DNA of 64,000 bases from Roseibacillus ishigakijimensis (GTDB lineage Bacteria > Verrucomicrobiota > Verrucomicrobiia > Verrucomicrobiales > Akkermansiaceae): assembly GCF_016595415.1 (NCBI RefSeq), contig NZ_JAENIO010000004.1, positions 62,001 to 126,000 on the forward strand, written 5' to 3'. The notes under the pieces were generated by a model. The model did no database searches and was not told where the DNA came from. It was given only the letters and a program-made list of their open reading frames with translations. Shown here in pieces: positions 41,305 to 47,523 of this stretch; position 1 is the first letter of the stretch, and every line of letters begins with the position of its first letter. The position numbers and the translations under genes were made by a program.

Positions 41305-41322
41305 AATTAGCCCGGGCTAATT
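41305..41322 (+). promoter_or_regulatory. 18-bp perfect palindrome, candidate DtxR/MntR-family operator
   Basis: AATTAGCCCGGGCTAATT is a perfect 18-bp palindrome ending 8 bases before the ATG of the metal-binding lipoprotein, just after an AT-rich stretch that can serve as the -10 region (TATTAAAAT). Two-fold symmetric sites starting with TTAG and ending with CTAA are usual for DtxR-type metalloregulators; the exact match here is not tested. Placement suits repression when metal is sufficient. Confidence 0.6.
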
Positions 41323-41329
41323 CAGGGCC

Positions 41330-42322
41330 ATGAACTCACTTTTCTTTCGTCTTCTCACCTCCACAGGTGCTTTGGTTTTGCTTCTTGGAATCGCCTCTTG
41401 CCGGGACAAGGAGGGAGCCAAGAGCGTTGCCAGTTCCTTCTCCCACCCCTACCGCATCACTGCCACGACCGGAATGATCGCGGACATCACGCGCCAGGTA
41501 GTGGGAGGCGAGGAAGTGGCCGAAGTGACCAACCTCATTGGGGAAGGCATCGATCCCCACGCCTACAAGGCCGCGCGCAGTGATTTGCTCGCCTTGCAGA
41601 AGGCCGATCTCGTTCTTTACAATGGTCTCCTCTTGGAAGGAAAAATGGGGGACACGTTTTCCCGTCTCGGCGAGAGCGGCAAACCCGTCGTCGCAGTGGC
41701 GGAGTCGGTATTGCAATCCACCCAAGGCCCTCTGCGGGACGAGTCGGATCACCCCGACCCCCATGTGTGGATGGATGTGCGCCTGTGGATGCAAGCGGTG
41801 GAAACCATCGCCACCACTCTGATGAAGCACGACCACGCCCATGCCGACCGTTACCGGGAAAATGCCGACCGCTATCTCGCTGAACTCCGCCAATTGGACG
41901 ACTATGCCCGCACCTCCTTGGCGACCATTCCGCAAGAGCAACGGGTCCTGGTCACTGCTCATGACGCCTTCGGCTACCTTGCCCGCGCTTACGGCATCGA
42001 GGTCAGAGGGGTTCAGGGTCTTTCCACTGAATCCGAAGCGGGGGTGAGAGACATCGAGAATCTGGTCCTCTTTCTAATCGACAGGAAAATTCCCGCCATT
42101 TTCGTGGAGAGCTCGGTCTCCGATCAGCACGTGAAGGCCCTGCAGGAAGGGGCCCGGGCCCAAGGGCATGAAGTTACTATTGGGGGAAAGCTCTTCTCCG
42201 ATGCCATGGGGCCGGCCGGAACCTATGAAGGCACCTACGTGGGCATGATCGACCACAACATCACGACCATCACCCGCGCTCTCGGCGGGCAGGCCAGAGG
42301 CTTTCGAGCTTCCCGGAACTAA
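41330..42322 (+). CDS. Metal ABC transporter binding lipoprotein (TroA/MntA-like)
   Basis: A 330-residue lipoprotein (Cys24 after MNSLFFRLLTSTGALVLLLGIAS). It belongs to cluster A-I metal-binding proteins (Zn/Mn). Ligands visible: His77 (GIDPHAYK), His145 (DPHVWMD), His211 (TAHDAFGYLARAYG) and Asp308 (GMIDHN), matching the three-His-one-Asp set of TroA, which binds Zn or Mn. A small His/Asp-rich loop (HDHAHAD, about 167-173) is like ZnuA but short. First gene of the locus, after an 18-bp palindrome. Exact metal not determinable. Confidence 0.92.
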   Translation: MNSLFFRLLTSTGALVLLLGIASCRDKEGAKSVASSFSHPYRITATTGMIADITRQVVGGEEVAEVTNLIGEGIDPHAYKAARSDLLALQKADLVLYNGLLLEGKMGDTFSRLGESGKPVVAVAESVLQSTQGPLRDESDHPDPHVWMDVRLWMQAVETIATTLMKHDHAHADRYRENADRYLAELRQLDDYARTSLATIPQEQRVLVTAHDAFGYLARAYGIEVRGVQGLSTESEAGVRDIENLVLFLIDRKIPAIFVESSVSDQHVKALQEGARAQGHEVTIGGKLFSDAMGPAGTYEGTYVGMIDHNITTITRALGGQARGFRASRN

Positions 42323-42409: not shown

Positions 42410-43189
42410 ATGAATATGAACACCCGCACCCAACTCCTCGCCCTCGCCTGCTCAGGTCTTGGCCCACTCTCCGCCAATCATCTCTTCGACCCCGTCGCCG
42501 ACGATCAACTGCGTGAACTCGCCGCGGATCGGCCGGACGCCACCGAGAGCCCCCAGACCGTCGACGCCGGGCGTTTCCAACTGGAGGCCTCCCTCTACGA
42601 CTACCGCCGCCACAAGGGAGAAGAAAGCCACACCTTCGGCTCCCTCACCGCCAAGGTCGGGCTCACGGACTCCTCCGACCTGCAATTCGTCTGGGACAGC
42701 TACTCCCGCACGGACTCCGGCGCCGAGGGCTCGGGCGACCTGACCATCCGCTACAAGCACAACCTGTGGGGAAACGAAGGTGGCGGGACCGCCTTCGCGC
42801 TCTTTCCTTTTGTCAAAATTCCCACCGGCGGCGAGCTTTCCAATGACCAATGGGAAGGCGGCCTCATCCTCCCCTTCAGCACCAGTCTGGCCCAGGGAGT
42901 GGGACTGGGGCTCATGGCGGAAATCGACTATCTGTATGAGGAAGAGGAGGGGAACCACGCCTTTGCCTTCGTCCACACTGCGGTCCTGGGCTTCGATCTC
43001 AGCGAGCGCCTGGGCCTTTTCACGGAATACATTGGCACGGCGGGAGAAGGTTTCTACGAAGCTTCACTGGCTGCCGGGCTCACCTACCAAGTCCATGAAC
43101 ATCTCCTCCTCGATGCGGGAGCCACCTTCGGCCTCACCGACGAAGCCGAGGACCTGGGACTCTTCACCGGATTCACCATCCGCTACTAG
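42410..43189 (+). CDS. Outer-membrane beta-barrel-type protein in the metal-transport locus
   Basis: A 259-residue secreted protein (signal MNMNTRTQLLALACSGLGPLSA) whose body alternates polar and hydrophobic residues with short turns (FGSLTAKVGLTDSSDLQFVWDSY, DLTIRYKHNLWGNEGG, YVAASLAAGLTYQVHEHLLL) and ends in an aromatic residue (FTIRY). That is the pattern of an outer-membrane barrel like the 'MetA-pathway' or transporter group. It lies 87 bases after the binding protein and 63 before the ATPase, so it may be the outer-membrane entry route for the metal. The role is inference. Confidence 0.75.
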   Translation: MNMNTRTQLLALACSGLGPLSANHLFDPVADDQLRELAADRPDATESPQTVDAGRFQLEASLYDYRRHKGEESHTFGSLTAKVGLTDSSDLQFVWDSYSRTDSGAEGSGDLTIRYKHNLWGNEGGGTAFALFPFVKIPTGGELSNDQWEGGLILPFSTSLAQGVGLGLMAEIDYLYEEEEGNHAFAFVHTAVLGFDLSERLGLFTEYIGTAGEGFYEASLAAGLTYQVHEHLLLDAGATFGLTDEAEDLGLFTGFTIRY

Positions 43190-43252: not shown

Positions 43253-44080
43253 ATGAAGTCCTTGGCCAAAACCTTCTCTCCCCGGGGCGACGCGGCGGGG
43301 CCGACCCTCTCGGACCACCCGAAGGAGGTTCCCCTCGCGGTGCACGATCTGACGGTCGCCTACCACCGGAAGCCCGTGCTCTGGGACCTGGACCTGGACA
43401 TTCCGGACGGCAAGCTGGTGGGCATCGTGGGGCCGAACGGAGCCGGCAAGTCCACTTTGCTCAAGGCCTGCCTGGAGCTCATCCCGCGCACCTCCGGCGA
43501 GGTCGCCATCTACGGCGAGCCCTACAAGAAACAGCGCCAGCTGGTGGGCTACGTGCCGCAGCGGGAAAGCGTGGACTGGGACTTCCCGGTGAGCGCCCTC
43601 GACGTCGTCGCCATGGGCACCTACCGCAAACTGGGCTGGCTCAAGCGCGTGGGCAAGCGCGAGCGAGAGATCGCCCGTAAGGCCCTCGAGCAGGTCGGCA
43701 TCGGCGAGCTGGCCGACCGGCAGATTTCCCAACTCTCCGGCGGGCAGCAGCAGCGGGTCTTTCTCGCCCGCGCGCTCGCCCAGGACGCCCAGCTCTACTT
43801 CATGGACGAGCCCTTTGCCGCCGTCGATGCCGCCACCGAACAAGCCATCGTCAAGCTCCTGCAAGAGCTCAATGCCCGGGGCAAAACCTGCCTCGTGGTC
43901 CACCACGACCTCGCCACCGTGGCCCGCTACTTCGATTGGGTCATTCTGCTCAATATGCGGGTGGTGGCCTCCGGTCCCACCAGCGAGGTTTTCACCCCCG
44001 AGAACCTCGAAAAGACCTACGGAGGTCAACTGAATCTCCTCAATCAAGCTGTGCAAGCCCTCCGGGATATCACGAAATAG
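43253..44080 (+). CDS. Metal ABC transporter ATPase (TroB/MntB-like)
   Basis: A 275-residue ATPase with Walker A GPNGAGKS at 60-67, [15 protein letters not shown] near 160, Walker [12 protein letters not shown] and the His switch VHHDLATV. The [23 protein letters not shown] block is characteristic of manganese/zinc ABC ATPases of this cluster. An N-terminal extension of about 30 residues is unusual. It pairs with the two permeases downstream, although a sulfatase gene and a Uma2 gene intervene. Confidence 0.93.
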
Positions 44081-44087
44081 TTGTTCC

Positions 44088-45503
44088 ATGATCAAACGAT
44101 TCCTCTTCCTCCTCACCACCAGTGGCCTCCTGGCGGCCGAGCGCCCCAACGTCCTTCTCCTCTGTATCGACGACCTGCGCCCGGAGCTGGCCAGCTTTGG
44201 TGCCGACTACATCCAGTCGCCCCACATTGACGCCCTCGCCGCGCGGGGCCGCGCCTTCACCCGCCACTACGTGCAGGCTCCCACCTGCGGGGCCTCGCGC
44301 TACACCCTGTTGACCGGCCGTTACGGCCCCTATGGCAACCGTTCCCTCTTTGAAAGGGGGAAAAAGATCGCGGCGGGCGAAGAAGTCAGCCCCTCCCTGC
44401 CGGCCTGGTTTCGCGAACATGGCTACACCACCGTCTCAGTGGGCAAGGTCTCCCACCACCCCGGGGGCCGGGGCGGTCCGGATTGGGATACGGAAGAAGA
44501 AAAGGAAATGCCCCTGAGCTGGGACCGCCACCTCATGCCCACCGGCCCCTGGCAACACCCCCGCGGAGCCATGCACGGCCTCGCCAATGGCGAAATCCGC
44601 TCCCAGGTGCACAAGGGCAGCATGGATGTCTACCAAGCCTTCGACGGCCCCGATACCAGCTACCCGGACGGGCTCATTCTGGAGGAATCCCGCAAGCAAC
44701 TGGCCGACCTCACGGACCAGGACGAGCCCTTCTTCCTCGCCGTCGGCTTCATCCGCCCCCACCTGCCCTTCGGCGCTCCCGCAAAATATTATGAACCCTA
44801 CCGCGAGGCCGAACTGCCGCCCACCCCGCACCCGGAGAAGCCGGACTGGCGCTCCACCTGGCATGACTCGGGAGAATTCCGCGGCCAATACACCACCTGG
44901 GGCCGCGAGCCCAACGAGGATGCCGAGCTGGCCCTCGAGCTGCGCAAGCACTACGCCGCCTGCGTGACCTACGTCGACAGCATGGTGGGCGAGCTTCTTA
45001 CCCAGCTGGAAGAAAGCCCGGCCGGGAAAAACACCATCGTCGTGCTTTGGGGGGACCACGGCTGGCACCTCGGCGAGCACGCCATCTGGGGCAAGCATGC
45101 CCTCTTCGAGGAATCCCTGCGCTCCCCCCTCATCATCAGCCATCCCGACCTGACTCAACCCGGGAAAAAGACGCGCGCCCTCAGCGAGACCATCGACATT
45201 TACCCCACCCTCTGCGACCTCGCGGGGATTGCCCAGCCAGAGACCCTCCACGGGCGCTCCCTGCGCCCCCAGCTCGAGGATCCCGCCGCCAGTGGCCAGC
45301 CTGCCCTCTCTTACAAGCACGACGTCCACTCCCTGCGCACCGACCGCTACCGCCTCGTCCTGCACGAAGACGGCTATGCCGAGCTCTATGACGAGCGCGA
45401 CCGCGAGGCTAAAAACATCGCCGCTGACCACCCCGAGGTGGTGAACGAGCTGAGTGCAAAACTTCACGCCCGTCTGAAAGACAAGCCCCGCAGCCGCGAA
45501 TAG
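44088..45503 (+). CDS. Secreted type I sulfatase (iduronate-2-sulfatase-like)
   Basis: A 471-residue secreted protein (signal to about residue 17) with the sulfatase core: [14 protein letters not shown] metal-binding Asp pair, formylglycine motif C-G-A-S-R at 67-71 (Cys67; Ala in place of the usual Pro is allowed), [11 protein letters not shown], and [26 protein letters not shown]. It would hydrolyse sulfate esters of sulfated glycans, calcium-dependent, after formylglycine conversion by a separate enzyme not in the window. It sits 7 bases after the metal ATPase and 15 before the permease, so it is co-transcribed with the metal transporter. Confidence 0.92.
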
Positions 45504-45518: not shown

Positions 45519-46886
45519 ATGACGCTGGCCGATTTCTGGGACATCCTCACCCTCCGCAACTACAACACCCGGGTAGTGGTCCTCTCCACCACCATCCTCG
45601 GAGTGGCGGCGGGCTTGGTCGGGTCTTTCCTTCTGCTCAGAAAGCGTTCCCTGATGGGCGATGCCCTTTCCCACGCCACCCTACCCGGCATCGCCCTGGC
45701 CTTTGCCCTCATGACCAGCTGGGGCCTGGACGGCAAATCCCTCCCCGCCCTGCTCGCCGGGGCCACCCTCTCCGGCGTGCTGGGCGTCCTCCTCATGCTG
45801 GCCATCCAACGCACCACCCGCCTGCGCGACGATGTCTCCATGGGCTTGGTTCTCTCGGTCTTCTTCGGGCTCGGCGTGGCCCTCCTGGCCATGGTGCAAA
45901 AGCTCCCCAACGCCAGCGCGGCCGGGCTGGAATCCTTCATCTACGGGCAATCGGCCTCCATCGTATGGAATGACTTTCTGCTCATCGCCGCCGTCTCCCT
46001 CCTCATCACCCTGACCACCCTTCTCCTTTTCAAAGAGTTCACTCTCCTTTGCTTCGACGATGGCTTCGCCGCCTCCCAGGGCTGGCCCGCTCTCCTCCTC
46101 GATATCGCTCTCCTCGCCCTCGTCACCGCCGTCACCGTCATTGGGCTGCAATCGGTGGGGCTCATCCTTATCATCGCCTTCCTCATCACCCCCCCGACCA
46201 CCGCCCGCTTCTGGACCGAGCGTCTCTCCCATCTGGCCGTCCTTTCCGGGCTCTTCGGAGCCCTCAGCGGTTGGCTGGGAGCCAGCCTGAGCGCGGCCTA
46301 CGCCAACTTGCCCGCCGGGGCCCTCATCGTGCTGGCCGCCGCCCTCCTCTTCCTCCTCAGCATGATCTTCGCCCCCGCCCGTGGTGTCCTCCCCCGCTTC
46401 CTCCGCCAGCGCCGCCTGCGGCAAAAAGTCGCCCGCCAACACGTCCTGCGCGCCGCTTACGAAATCCTCGAGAGCCAATGCACCCACGAGCAGGACCCGG
46501 CCGGGGGCCACCTCGTCACCAACGCGCCCTTTCCCTTCTCCGCCCTTCTCGCCAAACGAACCTGGTCCCCCCACACCCTGCAGAAAATTCTCCGCTCCGA
46601 GCAACGCCGCGAGCACCTCACCCGCCGCCCCGAGGGCACCATCCTGCTCAGCGAAGCCGGCTTTGGCGAAGCGGCCCGCGTCACCCGCAACCACCGCCTC
46701 TGGGAAGCCTACCTCGTGACCCACGCCGACATCGCCCCCAATCACGTCGACCGCGATGCTGATATGGTTGAACACGTTCTCGAGGCCGACCTCGTCCGTG
46801 AGCTGGAGCGCGTCCTGCGCGACCGCGATGCCTGGGTCGCCATGCCCACCAGCCCGCATGAAATCGAACCCGCCCGCCCCTCCTGA
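45519..46886 (+). CDS. Metal ABC permease fused to a DtxR/MntR-like regulator domain
   Basis: A 455-residue protein. Residues about 1-285 are a TroC/MntC-type permease (about eight membrane segments; LMGDALSHATLPGIALAFAL, VGLILIIAFLITPPTTARF). After a basic linker (RFLRQRRLRQK, about 292), residues about 300-440 resemble DtxR-type regulators: a winged-helix-like part (HVLRAAYEILE ... TWSPHTLQKILRSEQRREHLTRRPEGTILLSEAGF) and the metal-binding dimerisation helix ARVTRNHRLWEAYLVTHADI...NHVDRDADMVEHVL. His, Asp, Glu and His residues of the MntR-like metal site are present. The regulator is thus tethered to the membrane. Whether it binds DNA or regulates transport is unknown. Confidence 0.85.
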   Translation: MTLADFWDILTLRNYNTRVVVLSTTILGVAAGLVGSFLLLRKRSLMGDALSHATLPGIALAFALMTSWGLDGKSLPALLAGATLSGVLGVLLMLAIQRTTRLRDDVSMGLVLSVFFGLGVALLAMVQKLPNASAAGLESFIYGQSASIVWNDFLLIAAVSLLITLTTLLLFKEFTLLCFDDGFAASQGWPALLLDIALLALVTAVTVIGLQSVGLILIIAFLITPPTTARFWTERLSHLAVLSGLFGALSGWLGASLSAAYANLPAGALIVLAAALLFLLSMIFAPARGVLPRFLRQRRLRQKVARQHVLRAAYEILESQCTHEQDPAGGHLVTNAPFPFSALLAKRTWSPHTLQKILRSEQRREHLTRRPEGTILLSEAGFGEAARVTRNHRLWEAYLVTHADIAPNHVDRDADMVEHVLEADLVRELERVLRDRDAWVAMPTSPHEIEPARPS

Positions 46887-46935: not shown

Positions 46936-47523
46936 ATGAAAACTCCCGTGGACGGCACCTCTGCCATCGCCATCGAGCCCGGCATCGTCTGGATGAGCGT
47001 GGAAGATTACCTCGCCGCCGAAGAGCGCTCTCTCGAGAAACACGAATACATCGACGGCTATGTCCGCGCGATGGCCGGAGCCTCGAAAAACCACGAGCGG
47101 ATCAGCCTCGACCTCGCCGTCAACCTCGTCTCCCACCTCCGGGGACAGCCCTGCGAAGTCTTCAAAGCCGACATCAAGGTCCATGTGCAAATCCTCGACA
47201 AGCGCTTCTACTTCTACCCCGACCTGGTCGTCACCTGCGACGTCCGCGACAAGGACAACTCGGCACAAGTCGACTTTCCCAAACTGATCGTGGAAGTTTA
47301 CAGCGAAGGCAATCTCGCCGCCGCCCTGGACAAGCTCTCCTCCTACCGAGCCATTCCCACCCTGGAGGAATACGTCCTCATCAGCTGCGATCCCGCCAAG
47401 CCTCTGGTCACCATTTTCCGCCGCGACAACCGCTGGCAACCGGTGCAGTTTTCCGAGGGCGAGCTCCAGCTCGACTCGATCCACTACCGTCTCCCCTTCG
47501 CCGACCTCTACGCTCGCCTGTGA
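46936..47523 (+). CDS. Uma2-family restriction-endonuclease-like protein
   Basis: A 195-residue cytoplasmic protein of the Uma2/DUF820 family (PD-(D/E)XK fold). Visible core: MSVEDYLAAEERSLEKHEYIDG, the acidic residue in FYFYPDLVVTCDV and the Glu-x-x motif in PKLIVEVYS. Family members are predicted nucleases of unclear role, common in cyanobacteria and other environmental bacteria. It lies between the two metal permease genes; the stop overlaps the next start (GTGA), so it belongs to the same transcript. Start 46936 gives the family's normal N-terminus. Confidence 0.87.
   Translation: MKTPVDGTSAIAIEPGIVWMSVEDYLAAEERSLEKHEYIDGYVRAMAGASKNHERISLDLAVNLVSHLRGQPCEVFKADIKVHVQILDKRFYFYPDLVVTCDVRDKDNSAQVDFPKLIVEVYSEGNLAAALDKLSSYRAIPTLEEYVLISCDPAKPLVTIFRRDNRWQPVQFSEGELQLDSIHYRLPFADLYARL

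Follow-up and report, generated by a model that had tools for sequence, protein, structure and literature searches.

The closest described system is YtgCR (CT069) of Chlamydia trachomatis, in which an ABC-3 permease is followed by a C-terminal DtxR-like domain, in an operon of substrate-binding protein, ATPase and permease genes. The YtgR part of this permease-DtxR fusion is reported to be released by cleavage and to act as a transcriptional repressor with iron (PMC5599777, PMC7755916, PMC6504234), and its metal ligands are described as conserved (PMC5599777). The original prediction on the present DNA held that the regulator is a separate gene in known systems, and overlooked YtgCR, which has been studied experimentally (PMC5599777, PMC7755916, PMC6504234). 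The separate arrangement is seen in the Treponema tro operon (TroABCD and TroR). Its transporter type is the same as here, whereas TroR is a separate DNA-binding protein. No paper on permease-DtxR fusions outside Chlamydia was found in open-access text. The fusion described here lies within the window, the whole 64,000-nucleotide stretch of DNA that was analysed, which belongs to contig 137 of a verrucomicrobial genome of 4.1 Mb (Table 1). The reading preferred here, to which we give an even chance, is that the importer itself is controlled by the fused domain, acting as a cytoplasmic metal sensor (trans-inhibition), with the transcription of the operon left to a separate MntR.

Table 1. The metal transporter operon and the parts of its fused permease, in window positions.
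Feature	Position	Strand	Evidence or remark
18-bp perfect palindrome AATTAGCCCGGGCTAATT, putative operator	41305..41322	.	7 bp upstream of the first operon gene
Substrate-binding lipoprotein	41330..42322	+	Closest solved relative is TroA of Treponema pallidum
Beta-barrel gene, PF13557 (Phenol_MetA_deg)	42410-43189		Between binding protein and ATPase
ABC ATPase, MntA-like	43253..44080	+	
Sulfatase	44088-45503		Inside the transporter operon
Fused gene, 455 aa, encoding an ABC-3 metal permease with a DtxR-like domain at its C terminus	45519..46886	+	ORF list, Pfam, orthologue survey
ABC-3 permease domain, residues 18-284	45570..46370	+	Pfam E=1.2e-60
Basic linker, residues 290-320, continuous with DtxR helix 1 as one predicted helix	46386..46478	+	AlphaFold
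Winged-helix region, residues about 340-377	46536..46649	+	Fold retained; relaxed constraint on recognition helix 350-364
Metal-binding/dimerisation helices, PF02742, residues 379-435, with H392, E396, D411, D415, E418, H419	46653..46823	+	
Terminal Ser-Pro-His motif, residues 445-447, nearly invariant among W-type fused permeases	46851..46859	+	Family conservation
Uma2-family gene	46936-47523		Inside the transporter operon
Second ABC-3 permease, without DtxR domain in this genome	47520..48461	+	

The operon is tro-like, with genes for substrate-binding protein, beta-barrel protein, ATPase, sulfatase, fused permease, Uma2-family protein and second permease. Judging from its components, the importer transports a divalent metal, for example Mn, Fe or Zn, because the binding protein is closest to TroA and the ATPase is of the MntA type. 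The TroA-like binding protein keeps the ligand positions His, His, His and Asp. The fused protein belongs to the ABC-3 permeases (TroC/MntB/ZnuB), with PF00950 across the membrane part, the 8–9 transmembrane helices expected of this class and the metal-gate Asp/His. D48 and H52 are invariant and align with the MGDAISHAVLPG stretch of the manganese permease 7kyo. Some 30 related metal ABC loci also carry homologues of the PF13557 beta-barrel protein, among them the unfused systems L064, L066, L070 and L071. This recurrence suggests that the barrel is an outer-membrane partner for metal uptake. The sulfatase is also present in another genome (G003, L042), and the Uma2 gene is seen in this genome only. 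An Nramp (MntH-like) transporter and three matches to the Fur family are encoded elsewhere in this genome (G000), on contigs 99, 170, 44 and 129 (L203–L207); therefore, the fused importer is not its sole metal control.

That a permease, a DtxR/MntR-type winged helix and metal-binding dimer helices share one reading frame had been proposed from the sequence, and Pfam, a family profile and AlphaFold with Foldseek agree on it. The Fe_dep_repr_C model (PF02742) matches residues 379–434 of the C-terminal region with E=5.5e-12, at 46 bits against a curated cut-off of 27. The family profile of the fused domain aligns with SloR, IdeR, DtxR and MntR over helix 1, the HTH/winged helix and the dimer helices (E=1.3e-13). 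In the AlphaFold models, the elements of the fused domain follow the DtxR order (pLDDT 82.9 for the domain alone and 89.4 for the whole protein). Foldseek with the predicted domain finds DtxR, IdeR, DR2539 and MntR, with a target TM-score of 0.85 for 1ddn (1ddn_A). Based on the profile and the predicted structure, the fused domain has the two-domain DtxR fold with a winged helix. For the helix-turn-helix, the original prediction stands as to the fold, by the family profile and the AlphaFold match to DtxR/IdeR, and fails as to PF01325, which gives no match. The linker is basic, as had been stated. In the whole-protein model, residues 290–320 form a single helix (pLDDT about 95) that begins where the membrane part ends and continues into DtxR helix 1. 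A floppy, obviously cleavable linker is therefore absent from the prediction, and the joint between permease and fused domain is predicted to be stiff.

Fusions were suspected to occur in relatives, and they do. In a scan of public genomes, 328 places encode a relative of the W domain, where W denotes the first-permease fusion of the type studied here. The taxon labels of the 80 relatives kept out of these 328 are Verrucomicrobiota or its subgroups, except one labelled 'Bacterium'. Among the 142 genomes of the order, 41 contain a permease orthologue at E of 1e-50 or better, a cut-off below which the weaker permease matches include another type, S. All 41 are fused, in frames of at least 442 aa, and no unfused orthologue of the first permease is found among them. 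The same joint in 41 of 41 orthologues, together with the 328 places that encode a relative of the domain, rules out an assembly or frameshift artefact, as well as a chance fusion. The S type is a second kind of fusion in the same order, with a more canonical metal domain (PF02742 about 1e-24). In the permease tree, W and S are placed together at 100/99, apart from unfused permeases, and a single origin of the fusion for W and S is therefore possible. In the D type, seen in eight loci from other verrucomicrobial classes, the second permease is also fused, and a separate DtxR adjoins most of these loci. Double-fusion metal ABC operons are found at L182–L189 (for example, L184:6965-9967 and L185:7624-11232); in L182 and L186 the domain of the second permease is almost without HTH, with the metal site retained.

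The ligand positions of DtxR and MntR, in their usual numbering, were transferred to the fused domain by alignment, and conservation was counted in 80 non-redundant members. His308 (73/80) corresponds to Met10 of DtxR and Asp8 of MntR, His392 (80/80) to His79, and Glu396 (80/80) to Glu83. Asp411 (74/80) corresponds to His98, Asp415 (74/80) to Cys102/Glu99, and the pair Glu418-His419 (79/80 and 74/80) to Glu105-His106. By this alignment the metal site is rewired, with His308, Asp415, Glu418 and His419 as its residues. His392, Glu396 and Asp411 are proposed to be a second metal site, and His447 of the Ser-Pro-His motif is a possible further ligand. In a divergent branch (L050–L054), His308 is replaced by Gln and Glu418-His419 by Glu-Glu. 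These members possibly use a different metal or have lost the site, and their loss of His308 and His419 counts against the sensor reading. Both branches, the typical one and that of L050–L054, are present in G030 and G020.

The same conservation bears on the idea that the fused domain serves as a structural or assembly module, for permease pairing or stability, with a metal site that is only structural. A domain never lost in 41 of 41 orthologues, with conserved dimer helices, would fit such a module. However, the ligand positions vary as little as the dimer core, and their residues were replaced jointly (Met/Asp to His, Cys/Glu to Asp), which is expected for a tuned site. A purely structural role is thus considered unlikely.

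The part of the domain that would read DNA behaves differently from the metal and dimer part. PF01325, the DtxR DNA-binding model, matches 0 of 16 W domains and, weakly, 1 of 22 S domains, whereas it clearly matches the separate regulators MntR (1.4e-17) and DtxR (3e-10). FeoA-type stand-alone regulators are also missed by this model, so the Pfam test is weak alone. Three DtxR-like regulators of about 320 aa (L199, L200 and L034) contain FeoA domains, two each in L199 and L200, and are without a clear PF01325 match, unlike ordinary DtxR. The mean pairwise identities of the recognition helix and the dimer helices are 0.29 and 0.76 in W, 0.16 and 0.71 in S, and 0.16 and 0.54 in D, against 0.52 and 0.68 in separate DtxR and 0.43 and 0.48 in separate MntR of the same phylum. 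The comparison leaves out L081, a contig-end fragment initially grouped with stand-alone regulators by profile score. dN/dS was calculated against two congeneric genomes, by NG86 counts on short stretches that give the order of magnitude only. For the fused domain it comes to 0.53 and 0.58 in the recognition helix and to 0.08 and 0.05 in the dimer helices; for the separate MntR, the recognition helix gives 0.04 and 0.04. The fused recognition helix drifts about ten times faster than that of the separate MntR (dN/dS ~0.55 versus ~0.04). The strong purifying selection on the metal/dimer part rules out a degenerate relic.

Because the PF01325, identity and dN/dS tests agree, the fused domain does not appear to be held to a DNA sequence, and it has probably given up sequence-specific DNA binding. 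The helix 2-3 region has a mean net charge of +3.5 in the fused domain versus about 0 in separate regulators, which counts against the sensor reading. Arg347 is nearly invariant and Trp349 invariant in this region, which therefore has some function. These basic helices may contact lipid, the ATPase, or DNA without specificity.

An intact separate MntR (L002:471-920) is encoded in this genome, and most fusion-bearing genomes have a separate regulator. No separate PF02742 regulator was found in the fusion-bearing G044, G020, G030 and G039, all but G044 incomplete genomes, and this too counts against the sensor reading. The 18-bp palindrome noted in the original prediction is present, and its core occurs only once in the whole genome. 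Operators of related operons are of either the AATTAGCCCGGGCTAATT type or the CTTGAnnnnTCAAG/TTTGAnnnnTCAAA type. The exact motif TTAGCCnnGGCTAA is seen in 9 of 90 promoters and in none of the shuffles, and the exact motif [CT]TTGAnnnnTCAA[AG] in 53 of 90 versus 0.09 in shuffles. A DtxR gene is adjacent in 26 of 34 loci with the CTTGAnnnnTCAAG-type operator (at most one mismatch) and in 1 of 13 with TTAGCCnnGGCTAA (Fisher p=2.5e-5, uncorrected for kinship; as the loci are related, the significance is overstated). Among seven W genomes with DtxR, five carry the CTTGAnnnnTCAAG operator type and none the TTAGCCnnGGCTAA type. Among five W genomes with MntR only, four carry the TTAGCCnnGGCTAA type and none the CTTGAnnnnTCAAG type. 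Since the operator type tracks the separate regulator, the operator would be read by that regulator and not by the fused domain. The palindrome is most likely the operator for the separate MntR. It had also been suggested as a target of the fused domain; this is disfavoured by the relaxed recognition helix, by the intact MntR, and by the operator type following the separate regulator across relatives.

The same facts weigh on a role like that of YtgR, in which the fused domain would be a metal-dependent repressor and would bind the operator of the operon, either after cleavage from the permease or while still at the membrane. The domain order and operon type are shared and the phylum is related. 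The winged-helix fold is retained and basic, and YtgR itself is reported to be cleaved and to repress ytgABCD (PMC5599777, PMC6504234). Against this, the fused recognition helix is under relaxed constraint, the operator type goes with the separate regulator, and the joint is predicted to be without a flexible linker. An intact MntR is present here, whereas YtgR is described as the only identified iron-dependent regulator in Chlamydia (PMC6504234). Such a repressor is judged rather improbable in this family. Capture of the separate MntR/DtxR in mixed dimers, by which the state of the transporter would be reported to the gene switch, is more doubtful still: the dimer helices are the best conserved part of the fused domain and most genomes have a separate regulator, but the fused domain is unchanged whether the partner is DtxR or a very different MntR, and in eight loci the second permease offers a candidate partner.

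The trans-inhibition reading is preferred because the domain is never lost, the metal site and the dimer helices are kept, DNA selectivity appears to be given up, and a joint predicted to be rigid connects the domain to a metal permease. It corresponds to gating of transport, the best supported of the three ideas in the original prediction. On this reading, the first permease would have acquired a DtxR/MntR-type repressor by fusion early in the history of the Verrucomicrobiota. In this family the domain would have retained its dimerisation helices, the DtxR fold in two parts and a rewired metal site, and would have lost the selection of a DNA sequence. When cytoplasmic Mn2+/Fe2+ (or Zn2+) rises, the metal would be bound by the fused domain. 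The metal-bound domain would then close onto the stiff helix connected to the last transmembrane segment; the ATPases or the partner permease are alternative contacts. Such closure would slow transport, much as the C-terminal domains do in MetN and ModC, while MntR would control the transcription of the operon at the palindrome. Here we infer the binding of metal, its identity, the movement of the domain and the effect on transport. In most W members the domain is on only one of the two permeases, which, as to a dimer partner, counts against the sensor reading. A wider version is held more tentatively. The repressor would have turned into an allosteric brake, the fused, DNA-blind DtxR sensing cytoplasmic metal throughout the family, and in some classes two different DtxR domains, one on each permease, would pair under the transporter, where the metal-driven dimer geometry of the repressor would gate transport.

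If a fused DtxR domain does trans-inhibit its importer, this would be a new means by which metal importers perceive the metal they carry, and a transcription factor domain would have been re-used as a transporter brake. The puzzling YtgCR gains an evolutionary setting, in which free-living relatives of the same superphylum carry fusions that seem not to act on DNA. What a repressor does on a permease can thereby be tested in species that grow in culture, among them Roseibacillus persicicus and Haloferula rosea.

In the trans-inhibited importers MetNI and ModBC, the sensing domains sit on the ATPase. These domains are unrelated to DtxR. The likeness proposed here is one of principle, namely that the importer is slowed by an extra domain which detects the imported substrate (PMC10710835). 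DtxR, IdeR, MntR and SloR share the two-domain fold and the metal-site positions with the fused domain. The fused domain differs from them in being on a permease, in having His at the Met10/Asp8 position and Asp at 98 and 102, and in being without a conserved recognition helix and without the SH3/FeoA domain. The architecture is that of YtgCR, a permease and then a DtxR-like domain in one reading frame. YtgR is set apart by its description as cleaved, DNA-binding and the only regulator of its kind in Chlamydia. The verrucomicrobial fusion has a drifting recognition helix and a linker predicted to be rigid, and it occurs alongside separate regulators. The permease-DtxR fusion is thus already known from YtgCR, and the verrucomicrobial family differs in failing the DNA-recognition test and in having separate regulators.
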